Source of the DNA: a virus
DNA: 21,336 bases
Virus record (IMG/VR): IMGVR_UViG_3300028862_000115
Coordinates: 1 to 21,336 of that record
Direction: 5' to 3' (one strand)
Shown here: positions 4,159 to 11,783 of the stretch, in pieces
Position numbering within the stretch: position 1 is the stretch's first letter
Layout of the letters: every line of letters starts with the position of its first letter
Position numbers and translations under genes: made by a program
The notes under the pieces: model-generated
What the model saw: the letters and a program-made list of their open reading frames with translations, nothing else
What the model was told of the DNA's origin: nothing
The model's database searches: none

Positions 4159-4199
4159 GCATAACGGTAGTTAACCATGAAAATAGCTTTGTGTTATGC
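4159..4199 (+). other. possible fossil attC-like site
   Basis: GCATAAC at 4159-4165 and GTTATGC at 4193-4199 are perfect 7-bp complements with the polarity of integron R'' and R' boxes, and the R'' box is followed by G as in the downstream array. The TAA that ends the seven-codon MKNKLPA ORF (4141-4164) is inside the R'' box, as if a gene had been cut here. The site is only 41 bp with no clear inner stem, so it may be coincidence or a degraded remnant. Confidence 0.3.
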
Positions 4200-5026: not shown

Positions 5027-5178
5027 ACCCAACTCATGGCAAACTCATCCTTACATCAGGACTGAAAGAAATAGTAATTTTGAACGACAAGCCTTTTGCT
5101 CTATTACAGAGCAAAAAGTCTGAAATGATTAAAGAAGGATACAAAAAGGAAAATTTAAAAATATATTATAAGTTATGA
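5023..5178 (+). CDS. small basic protein, 51 aa
   Basis: ATGA overlaps at both ends (5023 and 5175) fix this frame. The protein is Lys-rich (KKSEMIKEGYKKENLKIYY) with a beta-like N-terminal half (KLILTSGLKEIVILNDKPFA). No family is recognised. Confidence 0.6.
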   Translation: MNPTHGKLILTSGLKEIVILNDKPFALLQSKKSEMIKEGYKKENLKIYYKL

Positions 5179-5612
5179 AAACGAAAACAGAAACAACACA
5201 AATTAAGACCAACAGGCTGATAGCTGGGTTTATGGGCTATAATATAATCCCTTATCAACACAATGAATTTAGGCCGATATACAACGGCAATAAGTACGCA
5301 AAGACAGTCTCGGAAACCAAATTATTATGGGGTGGACTAGACATTCAGTTTACTGGTAGATTTGTTGAAAATGCAATTTATCCATTTGATACGGATTTTA
5401 GTTATCTTATTCCCGTCATTAAAAGGATTGAACAACAGGGTTATGTTGTATGTATTGCAGGGATAAAATATCAAGTTTACAGATTACTGGAGGAAAATTT
5501 ACCTATAATTGCTTTAGTGTGCGGTGATTTATCCAGAAAAACAGAAGTAACTTGCGATCTAATTACTGCTTTTATTGAATGGTATAATCGTATAAATAAC
5601 ACACCATTATGA
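5175..5612 (+). CDS. hypothetical phage protein, 145 aa
   Basis: It starts in the stop of the 5023 ORF and ends in an ATGA overlap with 5609. The sequence NRLIAGFMGYNIIPYQHNEF and the later FDTDFSYLIPVIKRIEQQGY resemble the layout of small Bacteroidetes phage proteins of the ABA-sandwich type (LIAEFMG ... W..LMPVVEKIE). This is a resemblance from memory only. It would be a small soluble protein with a structural rather than catalytic domain; the role is unknown. Confidence 0.65.
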   Translation: MKTKTETTQIKTNRLIAGFMGYNIIPYQHNEFRPIYNGNKYAKTVSETKLLWGGLDIQFTGRFVENAIYPFDTDFSYLIPVIKRIEQQGYVVCIAGIKYQVYRLLEENLPIIALVCGDLSRKTEVTCDLITAFIEWYNRINNTPL

Positions 5613-6572: not shown

Positions 6573-6644
6573 ATGTTATTCACATTTATAATTATCTTCG
6601 CAGTTATCGCTGGTGGTATTGGTGACTTATTTAAAAAACAATAG
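6573..6644 (+). CDS. one-TM micro-peptide, 23 aa
   Basis: ATG at 6573, TAG at 6642-6644, four bases before the recombinase start. Nearly all of it is one hydrophobic helix (LFTFIIIFAVIAGGIG) capped by DLFKKQ. Its size and position between two genes make it plausible, though it is short enough to be chance. Confidence 0.4.
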   Translation: MLFTFIIIFAVIAGGIGDLFKKQ

Positions 6645-6648
6645 AAAC

Positions 6649-7440
6649 ATGGAAAAGTTCGTGATATATTGTAGAGTATCGACAAAAGAACAAGGTCTTA
6701 GTGGACTTGGACTCGATGCACAGCTTGATACTTGCCGGAATTACATCGCTCACAAGCAAGGGGAGACTATCGGAGAGTTTTTTGATATTAAATCCGGTTC
6801 ATCTAGGAATAGAAATGGGCTTAACAAAGCACTATCTACAGCAAGAGAAAAAGATGCAACTATTGTATTCTCGAAACTTGACCGTTTAGCCAGGGATTCG
6901 GAATATGCCCATGCTATAAGAAACTCCGGCGTAAAGCTGTATTTTTGCGATTTCCCAGAACTCAATACCTTACTATTTGGAATACTTGTATCTTTTGCTC
7001 AATACGAAAAAGAGAAAGGACAAGAGAGGACAAAGGATGCGCTCAGATCAATAACGAGAGAGATAGAGTTGACAGGCAGTCATACTTCAGAAAAAAGTGG
7101 AAATACCATCACCGGGCTCGGTCGCACAAAAGGAACTAAAGCCAAAGCAGATTGGGCAAAACCATCTGAATATCTAATTTCCTCATTCCGCGATAAAATT
7201 GGTTCCGATACAGACAGAAGGAGGCAATGGCTATCGATCCAGCAAATGAGATCTAAAGGTGAAACGATGGCAAAAATAGCCGATACTATGAATGCTATTG
7301 GGGAGCTTACCCCTCGCGGGTACAAGTGGTCAAGTGGGTCGGTCTGTGCTGTATTGGAGAAGTGGGGTGATTATTTTTTGGAAGCGAAACAGATTGATGT
7401 GGAACTGCCGAAATACACGTCAGCCAGCCAATGCACATAG
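6649..7440 (+). CDS. small serine recombinase (resolvase/invertase family)
   Basis: A 263-aa site-specific DNA recombinase. The N-terminal catalytic domain shows YCRVSTKEQ with the nucleophile Ser11 and Arg9, the SKLDRLAR motif at residues 75-82, and the dimer-helix region FGILVSFAQYEKEKGQERTK (110-129). The C-terminal part holds a short recombinase-type DNA-binding segment (AKIADTMNAIGELTPRGYKWSSGSV, about 208-232) and no Cys-rich zinc domain, so it is far smaller than a large serine integrase. ATG at 6649 is preferred over a GTG at 6613 because MEKFVIYCRVS is the usual beginning. The last eight codons and the TAG lie in a hairpin shared with the first cassette-array half-site, so the tail may be array-derived. 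It could serve phage integration, resolution or inversion; no inversion targets were found. Confidence 0.9.
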   Translation: MEKFVIYCRVSTKEQGLSGLGLDAQLDTCRNYIAHKQGETIGEFFDIKSGSSRNRNGLNKALSTAREKDATIVFSKLDRLARDSEYAHAIRNSGVKLYFCDFPELNTLLFGILVSFAQYEKEKGQERTKDALRSITREIELTGSHTSEKSGNTITGLGRTKGTKAKADWAKPSEYLISSFRDKIGSDTDRRRQWLSIQQMRSKGETMAKIADTMNAIGELTPRGYKWSSGSVCAVLEKWGDYFLEAKQIDVELPKYTSASQCT

Positions 7441-7458
7441 GCATTGTGTTAGGGCGGC
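7429..7458 (+). other. array left end: R' half-site with hairpin
   Basis: CAATGC (7429-7434)/GCATTG (7441-7446) is a perfect 6-bp stem over an ACATAG loop, followed by R' GTTAGGG at 7448-7454. The right arm CACATAGGCATTGTGTTAGG closely matches the R' side of the site at 9087-9143 (CACATAGGTATTGTTAGG). No convincing R'' box is found upstream inside the recombinase gene, so this is either a degraded attC or the primary insertion point of the array. Confidence 0.55.
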
Positions 7459-7520
7459 TTAACCGAATAACAGCTTCAAACTTATACAAAACCAGCCTGA
7501 CACATAGCCGTGTGTTACTG
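7457..7520 (+). other. attC-like site 1 (64 bp)
   Basis: R'' GCTTAAC (7457-7463) fits RYYYAAC exactly; R' is GTTACTG (7514-7520). The inner arm CCGAATAACAGCT matches the corresponding arm of site 2 (CGAACACAGCT) and can pair with AGCCGTGTGTTA. With the half-site at 7448 it bounds a 66-bp unit with no gene. Confidence 0.6.
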
Positions 7521-7540
7521 GCAGTTAATTCTTAATTAAA

Positions 7541-7861
7541 ATGAAAACTACAAACTCAATCAAAAAATCAGGTGCTATTGTATGGCATAAAAATGAACTA
7601 AGGGTAATTACTAATCAAAATGTAGGTAAAAATCATATTGTATTAGAAAATGTAATTAAAATAAGAAAGTCATCGGTAAGACTTGCGAAAATTGGTGATT
7701 CTGTTGAATTTAAAGACTTAACATCTTTACCTGAACGCTGCTCAAAAATGGTTGATATGAAAATAACCTACTTTACTTCAAATGGGAATGTAGGCACAGA
7801 TAAAGATATGAACGAGTTTGATAGCTCAAAGCATTCGCACTTTCGCAAGCCCTTTGTTTAA
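7541..7861 (+). CDS. cassette protein, 106 aa, unknown
   Basis: The only gene of cassette 7515-7993, starting 27 bases after R'. It encodes a small soluble protein: a basic, beta-rich first half (SGAIVWHKNELRVITNQNVG) and a tail with KHSHFRKPFV. No catalytic motif is seen. Cassettes usually carry one such compact gene ending close to attC; here the stop TAA overlaps the start of the R'' region (7859-7863). Its function is unknown. Confidence 0.7.
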   Translation: MKTTNSIKKSGAIVWHKNELRVITNQNVGKNHIVLENVIKIRKSSVRLAKIGDSVEFKDLTSLPERCSKMVDMKITYFTSNGNVGTDKDMNEFDSSKHSHFRKPFV

Positions 7862-7862
7862 T

Positions 7863-7999
7863 TGCCAGTAACGAACACAGCTACCAGCATACAGCCGATT
7901 AGCGGGCGATGAACTGTCGAACCGCTGAAATGGCAAAGCGGGCAAATAAGCCTACTAAATGTACAAATATAGGCTATGTTTGATAGGCGTGTGTTATGG
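7863..7999 (+). other. attC-like site 2 (about 137 bp)
   Basis: R'' TGCCAGTAAC (7863-7872) is the exact reverse complement of GTTACTGGCA at 7514-7523, the left end of the same cassette. R' is GTTATGG (7993-7999). The arm AACACAGCTA ... GCATACAGCC pairs with GGCTATG ... TAGGCGTGTGTT with small bulges, as in long integron attC sites. Confidence 0.75.
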
Positions 8000-8045
8000 T
8001 TTCGCTGTTTTCTTTCTTATTATTAATCAATTAACTATCATTCAA

Positions 8046-8234
8046 ATGCAAACAAATTATTCAGATTTACCACGTAAAATAAAAAAAGGTTTGAAACGTA
8101 AGCTGTTCAAAGATTTAAAAGTATGGAAGTGGAAAGAGATAAAAATAACAGGCATTGTAAAATGTTCACATAGCATATCACATAATTCCCCCGACTTTAA
8201 AGGATTTCAAATAACTGGATATAGTTTAGGATAA
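8046..8234 (+). CDS. cassette protein, 62 aa, basic
   Basis: First gene of cassette 7994-8591. ATG at 8046 is used because the longer in-frame start (7959) lies inside attC site 2. The protein is strikingly basic in its first half (RKIKKGLKRKLFKDLKVWKWK), which suggests nucleic-acid or membrane-surface binding, with a beta-like end (FKGFQITGYSLG). It stops two bases before the next ATG, so the cassette carries a two-gene operon. Unknown family. Confidence 0.6.
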   Translation: MQTNYSDLPRKIKKGLKRKLFKDLKVWKWKEIKITGIVKCSHSISHNSPDFKGFQITGYSLG

Positions 8235-8236
8235 CC

Positions 8237-8464
8237 ATGAAAGAAGAAACTATAGTTAGAGAAAATCTAATGAATCAAGAAGGTTATACAGGCTATTTCG
8301 GTAGCGAATTATGTTTGCCTCGAACACGCGACTACTCAGATAGGTGGCCAAGAACTAAATGGGTGCCTGAATTAAATCAATTCAAATGCCCTCGTTGTGG
8401 TTGGGTATCTCAATATCCAGAAGATTTTATTAAACGCTACAAGGCTCGTTGGTCTTTACAGTGA
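8237..8464 (+). CDS. cassette protein with single CPRCG knuckle, 75 aa
   Basis: Second gene of cassette 7994-8591, two bases after its partner; its stop TGA (8462-8464) abuts the R'' box. Residues 51-54 form a zinc-knuckle-like CPRCG in the context FKCPRCGWVSQYPEDFIKRYKARW. Only one CxxC is present; a further Cys at 26 is distant. It may bind zinc as a dimer, or with a partner such as the 62-aa protein. The family is not recognised. Confidence 0.65.
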   Translation: MKEETIVRENLMNQEGYTGYFGSELCLPRTRDYSDRWPRTKWVPELNQFKCPRCGWVSQYPEDFIKRYKARWSLQ

Positions 8465-8599
8465 ACCGCAACGAACTAAGCTAAGCGAAACAGCCCGATG
8501 CGGTGCGATTCGCTGTCAGCCACGCTAAAATGATAATGCGGGTACGAATACTCGTATACAGATTCAGCCAGCTTGTGAGCATGGGTGAGTGTTATAGGC
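8465..8599 (+). other. attC-like site 3 (about 135 bp)
   Basis: R'' ACCGCAAC (8465-8472) followed by GA; R' GTTATAGGC (8591-8599). R'' pairs with the cassette's left end GTTATGG at five Watson-Crick positions plus one wobble. An inner hairpin AGCGAA/TTCGCT (about 8484-8513) is present. The GAACTAAGCT arm after R'' resembles those of sites 1 and 2. Confidence 0.65.
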
Positions 8600-8609
8600 T
8601 GGCGATTCT

Positions 8610-8617
8610 TATCTTTC
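8610..8617 (+). promoter_or_regulatory. cassette-borne -7 box TATCTTTC
   Basis: TATCTTTC matches 7 of 8 bases of the Bacteroidetes -7 element TAnnTTTG and lies exactly 19 bases from the first base of R' (8591). The methyltransferase cassette has TATCTTTT at the same 19-base distance. It would drive the 8651 gene. No TTTG -33 box is present. Confidence 0.4.
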
Positions 8618-8650
8618 TTAAATATAAATCTTTTAAAAAAAAAACTAAAA

Positions 8651-9082
8651 ATGAAACAAGAATTTGAAATGACACAAGAAGAAATGGACAACATTATCGA
8701 AATTAATAAAGGTGGTGGTGATCCAGTAATGTTTTTAAGCGGTGGAACTCCAATGGGAAGTTCTTTACAAGAAAAAATAAACCAGTATTGGGAAATTCTT
8801 TCTGATAAATACGGGTTCAAACAAATGACGGTTGAAGGTAGCGCAAAAGGAAAATTATTTTTTCTTGCAGAGCCGAAGCCGATTATAGTACCAAAAACAC
8901 AAACTGAAATTGAAATTGATAAATATTTAGGCAACTCAATGGGCTATTTAAGTTCTTACGTGGCTGATTCTCTCAAAAAAATAGCGGTGCAATTGGAGTC
9001 ATGTGAATATGAATGTGAAGGCGGGTTCTTGAAAAATAACGTATCGTTTCTTGCACTCAAAAAGTTGGCGGGTCTTTTTTAA
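8651..9082 (+). CDS. cassette protein, 143 aa, conserved unknown
   Basis: Only gene of cassette 8592-9137. ATG at 8651 is preferred; a longer frame from 8585 begins within attC. Features: acidic helical start (MTQEEMDNIIEINKGGGDP), the Gly-rich turn FLSGGTPMGSS, then a helix and a strand region (MTVEGSAKGKLFFLAEP). I recall this 'GGDPVMFLSGGTPMGSSLQEK' pattern from Bacteroidetes and cassette-borne proteins with no assigned function. It is soluble, with no metal site. Confidence 0.7.
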   Translation: MKQEFEMTQEEMDNIIEINKGGGDPVMFLSGGTPMGSSLQEKINQYWEILSDKYGFKQMTVEGSAKGKLFFLAEPKPIIVPKTQTEIEIDKYLGNSMGYLSSYVADSLKKIAVQLESCEYECEGGFLKNNVSFLALKKLAGLF

Positions 9083-9086
9083 GGTT

Positions 9087-9145
9087 GCCTATAACGAGAG
9101 GCTATGTGTATGGCTATTTGCCTACACATAGGTATTGTTAGGTGC
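9087..9145 (+). other. attC-like site 4 (59 bp)
   Basis: R'' GCCTATAAC (9087-9095) is the exact reverse complement of the cassette's left end GTTATAGGC (8591-8599). R' GTTAGGT (9137-9143) fits GTTRRRY exactly. The inner stem CTATGTGTA/TACACATAG is perfect. This is the clearest compact attC of the array. Confidence 0.8.
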
Positions 9146-9201
9146 TGGCGATTCTTTCTTATATTTTTCAAAACTATATATTAATTTTAAAAGTCAATTT
9201 T

Positions 9202-9627
9202 ATGAAAACAAAAATTTATGTAAAACAAGAAGTCGAAATTACTACATTAGAAGTAAAAGCAGGTGTTAGATACTGGGAAGATTCAGAATTTAACGGAGAA
9301 AATGACACGGAAGACGGTGAATTGGTTCCGTGTAAAATTGGTTCATTATGGTGTCCGATTATTGACATTGATAACGGAATTATCACAAATTGGAAACAAG
9401 GCGTAAAAGCTGAAATTCATTACAAAGTTGTCGATAATGGAAGTTACTACTTGAAAGATTCAAACGGTAATGTTGTTGCTTCAATCAAACAGGATTATGT
9501 TCCAAAAATTCTTTGTCCAAAAGAAAACGGTTACGGTGATTACATCATTATGGACGTTGACGAAAATGGTAAAATCTCAAATTGGAAAGCGGATATTAGT
9601 TATTTCTTTCCGGATATTGAAGATTAA
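9202..9627 (+). CDS. cassette protein, 141 aa, conserved unknown
   Basis: Only gene of cassette 9138-9679; ATG at 9202 is downstream of R', and the in-frame 9142 start is inside it. A beta-rich soluble protein with two similar halves: EVKAGVRYWEDSEFNGENDT with CPIIDIDNGIITNWKQG, then YGDYIIMDVDENGKISNWKA. The repeated D-I/V-D-x-N/E-G-x-I-x-N/S-W motif suggests an internal duplication. I recall the family from bacterial genomes and cassettes, without a known activity. The -7-like TATATTTT at 9160-9167 may be its promoter. Confidence 0.75.
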   Translation: MKTKIYVKQEVEITTLEVKAGVRYWEDSEFNGENDTEDGELVPCKIGSLWCPIIDIDNGIITNWKQGVKAEIHYKVVDNGSYYLKDSNGNVVASIKQDYVPKILCPKENGYGDYIIMDVDENGKISNWKADISYFFPDIED

Positions 9628-9685
9628 ACTTAATAGGTGAGCGAAAGGTCGTTTTTCTTTCGCTTGCCTATACATAATGTTATGC
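9628..9685 (+). other. attC-like site 5 (58 bp)
   Basis: R'' ACTTAAT (9628-9634) pairs fully with the cassette's left end GTTAGGT if two G-U wobbles are allowed. R' is GTTATGC (9679-9685). The strong inner stem AGCGAAAG/CTTTCGCT is extended by ATAGG/CCTAT. Confidence 0.65.
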
Positions 9686-9743
9686 GTTTGTTGTATCTTT
9701 TCTTTGTTAATGTATGTTATATTTTCGTGTTTTGTTGAAAATA

Positions 9744-9787
9744 ATTTGATTACTGCAAGCGATAATCAAATAAGAATATTATCTTTG
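9744..9787 (+). promoter_or_regulatory. regulated promoter: palindrome plus exact -7 box
   Basis: TATCTTTG at 9780-9787 is an exact TAnnTTTG -7 element. Just upstream is the perfect 9-bp inverted repeat ATTTGATTA (9744-9752)/TAATCAAAT (9763-9771), which covers the place where the -33 box would be. This is the layout of an operator-controlled promoter for the five-gene run starting at 9818. Confidence 0.55.
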
Positions 9788-9817
9788 TAGCATAATAATT
9801 AATTAATAATTGAATTT

Positions 9818-10033
9818 ATGAAAGCAACTAACTTGGTAACAACAGAGAACACAAATAACATGGCTTATAACATGTTAGGTATGGTAGAAAAAATAGACTA
9901 CTTAAATAGCATTGAAACGATTATGAGCATGTTTATTTACGAAACAGAAGAAGTTGAAACTGCTGTTTTTGCTATTTTATTGACAGAATGTCAGTTGTAT
10001 AATGAAAAACTTGAAGCAACTATTAAAGAATAA
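9818..10033 (+). CDS. small acidic protein, 71 aa
   Basis: First gene behind the 9780 promoter. Met-rich and acidic helical protein (MAYNMLGMVEKIDYLNSI, then YETEEVETAVFAILLTECQ). Predicted soluble, all-helical; no motif recognised. First position behind an operator-like palindrome would suit an autoregulator, but no DNA-binding fold is evident. Confidence 0.6.
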   Translation: MKATNLVTTENTNNMAYNMLGMVEKIDYLNSIETIMSMFIYETEEVETAVFAILLTECQLYNEKLEATIKE

Positions 10034-10037
10034 TATT

Positions 10038-10292
10038 ATGACAACTGATACTATATACTCAAAAGTTTGTGAAATTTGCTTTGATAATGTTCTATTTTAC
10101 AGAGTAAATTACCGTAAATTATCATCAAAATTCATCAATAAATTATTAAAATATGATATTGGAAAACTTGAAATTGATAGCATTAAAATAACTGATATTG
10201 GTATTGACTGCAATTTATTCACAATGAAAATAAATCAGATTACAACAATTGAAAACATTAATATTTCACATAATAGAATACTAACAAATTAA
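10038..10292 (+). CDS. hypothetical protein, 84 aa
   Basis: ATG at 10038, four bases after the previous stop. AT-rich; Ile/Asn-rich product with alternating charged and hydrophobic residues (KLEIDSIKITDIGIDCNLF). No known domain. Part of the closely packed run 9818-10868. Confidence 0.55.
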   Translation: MTTDTIYSKVCEICFDNVLFYRVNYRKLSSKFINKLLKYDIGKLEIDSIKITDIGIDCNLFTMKINQITTIENINISHNRILTN

Positions 10293-10296
10293 AATT

Positions 10297-10494
10297 ATGA
10301 GTGAAAATAGAGAAATAATGAAAACGCTCGAGGTGTTTTTGACTGACAACAAAATACCATATATTAATTTATATTGGTCGATAAAAATTGACAGGGAGAA
10401 ATTTTCACCTCAATTATTGAAGTTATGTAATGATAACTGTATATCATTTACATTTTTTGAAAATGATTCAGAATACATTTTATATAAAGTTTAA
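10297..10494 (+). CDS. hypothetical protein, 65 aa
   Basis: Four bases after the preceding stop. A helical start (NREIMKTLEVFLTDNKI), a strand (YINLYWSIKIDREKF) and an acidic end. The alternation suggests a small alpha/beta fold. No family is recognised. Confidence 0.55.
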   Translation: MSENREIMKTLEVFLTDNKIPYINLYWSIKIDREKFSPQLLKLCNDNCISFTFFENDSEYILYKV

Positions 10495-10497
10495 ACT

Positions 10498-10707
10498 ATG
10501 GAAAATTTTTTATTTAAAGCAAGACGGGTCGATAATGGTGAATTGGTGGAAGGTATGCCAATAGAAAGTAATATAGACTGTGAAGGTTATAAATCATACA
10601 TGTTTGTAGATTGGACTGTAAAAAATACTATAACGCTAATAACAGGGAAGGCGTCTTTTGGTAAATGTGTTGAAGTAATTCCTGAAACAATAATACAAAT
10701 CAAGTAA
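10498..10707 (+). CDS. YopX-like phage protein, 69 aa
   Basis: FKARRVDNGELVEGMPIES at the start and GKCVEVIPETIIQ at the end match the pattern of phage YopX-family proteins (FKAKRxDNGEWVEG ... KCVEVDPETV). It is about half the usual length: the middle of the usual domain is compressed. Function of the family in phage biology is not established. Its presence argues that this segment is phage-derived. Its TAA overlaps the next ATG (TAATG). Confidence 0.7.
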   Translation: MENFLFKARRVDNGELVEGMPIESNIDCEGYKSYMFVDWTVKNTITLITGKASFGKCVEVIPETIIQIK

Positions 10708-10868
10708 TGAAGCCGAAAACAGATAAAAATCCAAAAGGATCAGGCGCACCAAAAAAAGAACCTACTCAACCGTTTTATTGTCGCATTCCGATAAGCATTT
10801 ATTCCGAGTTGTCTGATTATGTTCACAAAGCTGTCGAAGCGCACAAAGCCAAGTCTTTTCCAAAATAG
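10707..10868 (+). CDS. small basic phage protein, 53 aa
   Basis: ATG at 10707 in a TAATG overlap. It opens with a Lys/Gly/Pro-rich stretch (KPKTDKNPKGSGAPKKEPTQ), then CRIPISIYSELSDYVHKAVEAHKAKS, resembling the N-terminal strand and helix of small ribbon-helix-helix or primase-associated phage proteins. It may be truncated: its stop TAG is followed within three bases by the R'' box of site 6, so cassette insertion could have trimmed the C-terminus. Confidence 0.55.
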   Translation: MKPKTDKNPKGSGAPKKEPTQPFYCRIPISIYSELSDYVHKAVEAHKAKSFPK

Positions 10869-10869
10869 C

Positions 10870-11005
10870 AGCTAACGACCGAGGCTATGGGTATATTGCC
10901 CATTTGCGAGTAAATCACTTTCATAAACGCACAAAATGAATAACGGAACACAAATAATCGAACCCCCACAAGGCGGGCAAATAACCATAGGCGCATGTTA
11001 TGCCC
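10870..11005 (+). other. attC-like site 6 (about 135 bp)
   Basis: R'' AGCTAAC (10870-10876) followed by GA; R' GTTATGCCC (10997-11005). Arms CTATGG ... CATTTGC and GCAAAT ... CCATAG can pair across a long loop. The R''-side CGAGGCTATGGGTAT resembles site 4 (GAGAGGCTATGTGTAT). R'' pairs at only 4 of 7 positions with the left end of the unit before it (GTTATGC, 9679), unlike the other cassettes. Confidence 0.6.
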
Positions 11006-11015
11006 AGCCCTTTCC

Positions 11016-11023
11016 TATCTTTT
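11016..11023 (+). promoter_or_regulatory. cassette-borne -7 box TATCTTTT
   Basis: TATCTTTT sits exactly 19 bases from the first base of R' (10997), as in cassette 8592-9137. It is 15 bases before the methyltransferase ATG, giving a very short leader. Confidence 0.4.
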
Positions 11024-11037
11024 CTCGTATTTGGGAA

Positions 11038-11532
11038 ATGCCAAACTCAAACACTTTTAGCATTAAATGTATATCCAAACTGATACACAAATACCTTAAA
11101 AGTGATATGATAAGCATTGACCCATTTGCGAATAACTGTAAACTGGCAAAAATAACAAACGATTTAAACCCTGATTACGATACTGATTATCATTTAGACG
11201 CTGTTGATTTTATGAAACAGTTTGAAGATAATTCAATCGACTTCGTATTTTATGACCCGCCTTATTCATTACGGCAGGTTTCAGAATGCTATAAAAACGT
11301 AGGAATACCCGTAACAATGGAAACTACACAAAGTAGCTGGAGAACAAAGCATATAAACGAAATAGCACGTATTTTAAAACCAAACGGAATATGTATTTCA
11401 TTTGGTTGGAACAGTTCAGGAGTTGGAATTAAACGAGGTTTCGAGTTAATTGAAATTTTACTTGTCGGACACGGTGGCAGCCATAATGATACGATTTGCA
11501 CCGTTGAACGCAAACGCCCCTCTCTTTTTTAG
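11038..11532 (+). CDS. DNA methyltransferase, DPPY type, 164 aa
   Basis: An S-adenosylmethionine-dependent amino-methyltransferase acting on DNA, probably adenine N6. Motif IV is FYDPPYS at residues 71-77 (catalytic DPPY 73-76). Upstream DPFANNCKLAKITNDLNP (28-45) is the likely SAM-binding motif I region. ARILKPNGICISFGWNSSG is the strand-turn after motif IV, and the protein ends ICTVERKRPSLF. At 164 aa it is a minimal enzyme without an obvious target-recognition domain and with no cognate nuclease nearby. The ATG at 11038 follows R'; an in-frame ATG at 10936 lies within attC. Likely role: shielding phage DNA from restriction, or an orphan regulator. It is the cargo of cassette 10998-11545. 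Confidence 0.8.
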   Translation: MPNSNTFSIKCISKLIHKYLKSDMISIDPFANNCKLAKITNDLNPDYDTDYHLDAVDFMKQFEDNSIDFVFYDPPYSLRQVSECYKNVGIPVTMETTQSSWRTKHINEIARILKPNGICISFGWNSSGVGIKRGFELIEILLVGHGGSHNDTICTVERKRPSLF

Positions 11533-11536
11533 GGTT

Positions 11537-11545
11537 GGGCATAAC
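11537..11545 (+). other. terminal attC half-site (R'' only)
   Basis: GGGCATAAC is the reverse complement of GTTATGCCC at 10997-11005, and the match extends to 13 of 14 bases (GGGTTGGGCATAAC against GTTATGCCCAGCCC). No R' box follows before phage sequence resumes at the RHH gene, so the last attC is cut short. Confidence 0.7.
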
Positions 11546-11576
11546 ATCTAATATAAATTATTTTGTACCCACAAAT

Positions 11577-11783
11577 ATGGATAAACTAACTGAAACATAT
11601 AAGTTTAGAATTTCAAAACAACAACTCGAAACGTTGGATAAATTGAGAGGATTAAATGTAGATGTCAGTCAGTTTATCCGTTTGGCAATTAAAGAAAAAA
11701 TTAAAAAGGATTACAAGAAAATTAATCCTGAAAAGAAATTAAGTATAATTAAACTAAAAGAATTATACCCTAATTTATTTTAA
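11577..11783 (+). CDS. ribbon-helix-helix-like protein, 68 aa
   Basis: The ATG at 11577 was chosen because an upstream in-frame start (11535) would begin inside the attC half-site. A short strand (TYKFRIS) is followed by two helices (QQLETLDKLRG and DVSQFIRLAIKEKIKKD), the Arc/MetJ layout, with a basic C-terminal tail. It probably binds DNA as a dimer and acts as a small regulator. It marks the return of phage backbone. Confidence 0.65.
   Translation: MDKLTETYKFRISKQQLETLDKLRGLNVDVSQFIRLAIKEKIKKDYKKINPEKKLSIIKLKELYPNLF

Follow-up and report, generated by a model that had tools for sequence, protein, structure and literature searches.

A gene-cassette array in a phage with a likely Bacteroidota host, with units that probably begin with a hairpin and a putative fixed landing site

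INTRODUCTION

In the conventional integron the attC site follows the gene, and the integrase, IntI, is defined by its I2 insertion. With attC after the gene, a conventional array should end in a full hairpin. The class 1 integron and the Vibrio superintegron use a tyrosine recombinase with a landing site beside its gene, and folded hairpin sites with GTT/AAC cores. The I2 helix is considered to be what enabled IntI to recombine single strands (PMC7790495). In the reverse integron of Treponema, the integrase and the cassette genes read in the same direction; intI reads toward attI, with the array further downstream (PMC3607928; PMC4909258). Clusters of attC sites without an integrase have already been published from phages, for example from Polaribacter phage P12002L (Qi, 2023; PMC9892861). 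These phage CALINs carry small cassettes, often methyltransferases, and IntI1 acts on five of the six phage attC sites that were tested. The study takes the sites for attC of the host type, with the cut at G|TT, and mentions neither a fixed site of insertion nor hairpins that precede their genes, start codons within attC or a recombinase of the phage's own (PMC9892861).

Here we consider a virus fragment of 21,336 bases from IMG/VR, the whole of which we call the window, and in it the interval 7429-11545. This interval holds a real cassette array. Like the phage CALINs, it has attC-like sites and small cassettes, among them a methyltransferase, and lies in a phage without an integrase; like IntI integrons, it has folded hairpin sites with GTT/AAC cores and, in its relatives, a tyrosine recombinase with a putative landing site beside its gene. 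Unlike in IntI integrons, the genes point toward the recombinase, the hairpin is 5' of the gene, the cut would fall at AA|C and the recombinase lacks I2. As in Treponema, recombinase and cassette genes read the same way, but here the array is upstream and reads into the recombinase (G004 and L293, discussed below). Judged from sequence, the array appears integron-like in its working, yet differs from an integron on two defining points, the position of attC and IntI: attC 3' of the gene with a G|TT cut, which integrons and CALINs have, is not what is found here. In our view the stretch is probably an array of gene cassettes that occupies an attI-like site of fixed position ahead of an RHH gene; the phage is probably one of Bacteroidota, and a tyrosine recombinase would move the hairpin-first units at AA|C.

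ANATOMY OF THE ARRAY

About five cassette-like units lie in 7448-11545, with hairpins between them. GTT-type boundaries are at 7448, 7514, 7993, 8591, 9137, 9679 and 10997, and AAC-type boundaries at 7471, 7872, 8472, 9095, 10876 and 11545. The window contains two or more attC-like sites with R''/R' cores and an L''/L' stem between them. Each unit opens with 8-15 nt (GTTA...) that are reverse-complementary to the unit's own end (...TAAC), as at 7514-7528 with 7858-7872 and at 10995-11011 with 11531-11547. This match of ends, which the original prediction does not mention, is the firmest single observation on the array. When all starts in the window were scored against all ends, own start-end pairing reached 59 vs. 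25 for pairing with neighbours, and only 4 of 5040 permutations of the start-end pairing attained 59. The best permutation joins the start at 9137 with the end at 10876, making 9137-10876 one unit. GTT 9679 has no partner end of its own in this scoring, and is doubtful as a boundary because the start at 9137 pairs best with 10876. The original prediction had counted seven G|TT cut points and six attC-like regions; the GTT and AAC boundaries stand, whereas 9679 is partnerless, 7448 is the right half of a site only, and 8591 is weak alone, with an independent-model score of 16.3.

All features given here are on the + strand. To the left of the array is a serine recombinase gene (6613-7440; Pfam Resolvase, 4e-23), for which no close relative was found among viral contigs; its last codons enter the half-site that ends at GTT 7448. 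The left end of the array (7420-7513) is decayed by sequence and folding: after this half-site come 64 nt that hold no gene, and then a weak hairpin that precedes GTT 7514. The first full cassette (7514-7872) carries a 106-aa ORF (7541-7861), and its start, GTTACTGGCA, pairs with its own end, TGCCAGTAAC. Within 7873-8472, an attC-like region (7873-7992) precedes a cassette (7993-8472) with ORFs at 8049-8234 and 8237-8464, the second zinc-ribbon-like; the leader of this cassette is 93% identical to L164, a locus with related sites, over 30 nt. A 46% identical homolog of the zinc-ribbon protein is an ordinary gene outside the array (L081, 2349-2585). Within 8473-9095 follow another attC-like region (8473-8590) and a cassette (8591-9095, ORF 8651-9082) with an own pairing of 9. 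The stretch 9096-10876 holds an attC-like hairpin (9096-9136; stem 9, hairpin z -4.0) and the large unit 9137-10876, which has six small ORFs, an own pairing of 7.8 and a possible decayed internal site at 9634-9679. In 10877-11545 a last attC-like hairpin (10877-10996; stem 7.7) precedes a cassette (10997-11545; own pairing 12.8) that carries a DNA methyltransferase (PHROG 11619, 6e-52), as the original prediction had said; it probably protects phage DNA from host restriction. The attI-like flank of the landing site (11542-11576) runs from the array edge to the gene of an RHH protein (11577-11783; PHROG 25647, 1.6e-13).

Two further repeats deserve mention. Unrelated cassettes in the window (8591-8610 and 9137-9156) and in L164 and L179 have a leader in common behind their GTT core (GCTGGCGATTCTTTCTTA or TTTTCTTTCTTA); it may be a signal for expression that travels with the cassette. 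At 4165-4193, 3.3 kb left of the array, there is a short attC-like repeat, CCGCATAAC-28 nt-GTTATGCAC, which scores 33.8 and is almost stemless; it was left out of the array.

A site model of two arms and a stem was trained on ten sites, solely from L164, L179 and L180 and none from the window. It gave 35.3 at 10997, 31.3 at 7993 and 22.4 at 7514; unrelated sequence, 3.3 Mb with strands counted, scored 25.3 at most. Walking leftward from 11545 yielded three chained units, while two units were obtained from only 1 of 150 random TAAC edges. The walker, with its null, and the arm model trained outside the window replaced a generic inverted-repeat detector, which was dropped as it found more links in a reversed control than in the real sequence. 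The strict pattern RYYYAAC-N20..50-GTTRRRY has no match in the window, and an Rfam search of the window gave no attC match. The window sites are weaker than those of G004 and of a shorter-armed type, which is common to L179, L164 and L180.

The same features could be read as chance motifs and intergenic terminators among ordinary small phage genes, with no cassette system. GTT and AAC are common in the AT-rich DNA of the window, the folding z-scores of several hairpins there are modest, and with a loose detector the controls yield as many links. This reading is hard to credit in view of the permutation test, the independent model, the chain walk vs. its null and the covariation in related hairpins described below, and it is contradicted by L179, which has the same flank and site family with different units. 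The mobile cassette array that had been predicted inside a phage is upheld by the start-end permutations, the outside-trained model and the chain walk, and by the different cassettes that relatives carry at the same flank.

RELATED LOCI AND A PROBABLE FIXED LANDING SITE

L179 is on the same contig as L252. The RHH gene to the right of its array is 82% identical in DNA to that of the window, and the array has three units of window-like build with different genes; one of its sites is 81% identical to window 9091-9157. L253 has the flank in common with the window and includes little of the array side. Comparing related phages at the same locus, as had been suggested with the original prediction, gave the same RHH flank with entirely different cassettes (window, L179/L252 and L253): the right flank is constant and the contents have been exchanged. 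Among relatives found through the RHH gene, an array edge is upstream of the gene in L252-L257 and L261, and in L252, L254, L255, L256, L257 and L261 a unit ends 30-60 nt upstream, with one to five units chained to it. Strong single edges occurred at none of 989 null sites. The RHH gene is a simple marker for finding further such loci. Other searches were negative: neither DNA similarity to the window nor the RHH protein was found in named phages, and the relatives of the M15 endolysin (80 loci) include none that is syntenic.

Three separate comparisons place the start of homology at the TAAC core or no more than one base from it, with different cassettes on the array side: that of the window with L252 and L253, where it marks the start of the landing-site flank, that of the recombinase-bearing pair G004/L250, and that of L254/L255. 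Homology that starts at TAAC is the trace expected from site-specific insertion at a fixed place. A conserved flank, a candidate attI, lies beside a Xer-like recombinase in G004/L250 and beside RHH in the window group.

The decayed left end (7420-7513), the partnerless GTT 9679 and the growth of 9137-10876 to six ORFs would suit a dead remnant, i.e. an old fixed and immobile array in which hairpins are kept only as terminators or translation signals. Close relatives, however, differ wholly in what they carry at this site, and in the window the ends of the first and the last full unit are nearly intact, so that we regard a dead array as improbable.

L180 is a contig of a Bacteroidales assembly with the same site family and a methyltransferase 91% identical to that of the window, which makes a Bacteroidota host likely on sequence grounds. 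In L180 (897-1673) the loop of an attC-like hairpin encloses this methyltransferase, and after it comes a unit of 57 nt that has matched ends and no gene. One scan found relatives of the methyltransferase at 115 viral-contig loci, and the same patterns gave 49 in cellular genomes; since they are plentiful in viral contigs, the cassette pool may be phage-borne. Croceibacter phage P2559S has its methyltransferase among ordinary genes, going by annotation only, and the edge walker found no units in the methyltransferase region of Polaribacter phage P12002L. Outside the array, the gene at window 5175-5612 belongs to the phage operon, and its 70% identical homolog (L177, 374-778) sits between two attC-like sites in G004; possibly a phage gene turned cassette, or the reverse.

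HAIRPIN STRUCTURE AND POLARITY

To examine the hairpins as a family, 29 from diverse arrays were aligned, the shorter-armed sites of the window being excluded. Paired bases fill 96.2% of the cells, and 17 of 23 pairs have changed on both sides, with a covariation score of 0.64 vs. 0.15 in shuffles; the pairing figures are inflated, since the stem offsets were those that gave the most pairs. A G-T pair is kept in 28 of the 29 hairpins, for which the choice of offset offers no explanation. The G-T position is a C-A mismatch on the other strand, and the two strands are thus not equivalent, as in attC sites.

The hairpin appears to come before the gene. All 16 array right edges are a bare ...TAAC with no hairpin after them. 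The best stems after right edges score 2-7.1, in the range of random sites (median 4, maximum 9.1), while internal boundaries have a median near 12. As bare right edges are the rule, random truncation does not account for the missing last attC of the window. The single cassettes of L144 and L293 each have a left-hand hairpin but lack one at the right. The main ORF has an in-frame ATG within the upstream hairpin in 16 of 41 cassettes, that of the window methyltransferase among them, and several of these have no other ATG for 100-300 nt; such genes can be mobile as working units only if the upstream hairpin travels along. The frame of the window methyltransferase is open from the hairpin ATG at 10936 across GTT 10997, with another ATG at 11038. 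The linkage of hairpin and gene across repeated cassettes is mixed and at most suggestive: the best protein-similar pair in one array shares its upstream hairpin (0.98 vs. 0.62 downstream), but a second pair shares the downstream hairpin instead. In the window itself, polarity is read from one edge and one start codon. The unit-walk, edge, hairpin-start and linkage analyses used scripts written for this case, again with stem offsets chosen to maximise pairing. Bare right edges, left-only hairpins and hairpin-borne starts together suggest that the mobile unit is probably hairpin plus gene, cut at AA|C, with the genes toward the landing site. Because the genes read toward it, a Pc promoter at the landing site could not serve them.

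THE RECOMBINASE

No tyrosine integrase or recombinase is encoded on the 21-kb fragment, in agreement with the predicted lack of an integrase beside the array. Related phages are informative. The viral contig G004 (IMGVR_UViG_3300043411_001575; 169 kb) has about 40 sites between 77 and 115 kb, most of its 39 units have own start-end pairing, and the same strand encodes a 298-aa tyrosine recombinase directly past the right edge, which is bare. L250 has a 79% identical recombinase with the same flank and just 70 nt of array side. A recombinase about 50 nt beyond an array edge was seen in three loci only, G004, L250 and L293. Among 295 Bacteroidia genomes, the best relative is 45% identical; a unit edge closely precedes it as well, and the region has phage-like genes. 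The G004 region at ~77-115 kb, with loci L242, L243 and L247, amounts to about 40 cassettes in one viral contig, many with related DNA methyltransferases; several different genes there share the hairpin-borne leader MIDRITEQPFCQTRV.

Solved XerA-type enzymes are Xer-type resolution recombinases, and we know of none beside cassette arrays. They are the closest solved relatives of the G004 recombinase (PDB 4a8e, 156 bits; 5hxy, 110 bits). The G004 enzyme matches IntI4 only in two blocks, which flank the site of the extra residues of IntI. At this place the edge recombinase counts about 25 residues, compared with about 69 in IntI4, and is without I2. From its position, we infer that this Xer-like recombinase moves the cassettes.

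The original prediction explained the array by host cassettes gained with an integrase supplied in trans, which would mean ordinary integron cassettes inserted by a host IntI. A related reading is an ordinary CALIN, in which host cassettes were inserted at G|TT by the IntI of the host or of a co-infecting element, with attC 3' of the gene and the terminal attC lost by chance. The R''/L''/L'/R'-like anatomy, the GTTA cores and the published phage CALINs with methyltransferase cassettes and IntI1-reactive sites (PMC9892861) all fit it. Against both stand the 16 of 16 right edges without a hairpin, the left-hand hairpins of isolated cassettes, edges that point to a cut on the AA|C side, start codons within upstream hairpins, and an edge recombinase without I2 in relatives. 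True IntI (TIGR02249 above the cut-off) is moreover present in 1 of 295 Bacteroidia genomes, and this genome (G156) has no array by the edge-walk method. Insertion of ordinary host cassettes by a host IntI is not supported, and we consider an ordinary CALIN unlikely.

A MODEL FOR CASSETTE MOVEMENT

In the hairpin-first reading that we favour, a tyrosine recombinase would recognise the folded coding-strand hairpin, and circular cassettes would be joined to the landing site by a cut at AA|C. In every cassette the hairpin would then lie 5' of the gene, the genes would point to the landing site, and the newest cassette would adjoin the RHH gene. The enzyme would be the Xer-like recombinase found at the same edge in related phages; in the window phage it may be encoded elsewhere or supplied by another element. 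An empty site, a circular cassette or activity has not been observed. More generally, we tentatively propose, as a possibility that we hold with less confidence than the reading of this one array, that Bacteroidota phages run an integron-like system of their own, with an I2-less Xer-type recombinase, hairpin-first cassettes, an AA|C core and a fixed site beside the recombinase's own gene or RHH, in which the hairpin provides the start codon and an N-terminal leader.

The array thus appears to be of a known broad kind in a new arrangement: the literature searched, which covered few subscription papers, contains no description of hairpin-first polarity, attC-borne starts, a fixed RHH-linked site or an I2-less recombinase at phage arrays. 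If the model is true, phages keep a dedicated cassette locus at which anti-restriction and accessory genes are exchanged, beyond picking up stray host cassettes. There would then be a second way of moving cassettes via folded sites, with an enzyme without I2, which would call into question the need for the I2 helix. The recombination hairpin would also be translated as the front of the gene that it mobilises.
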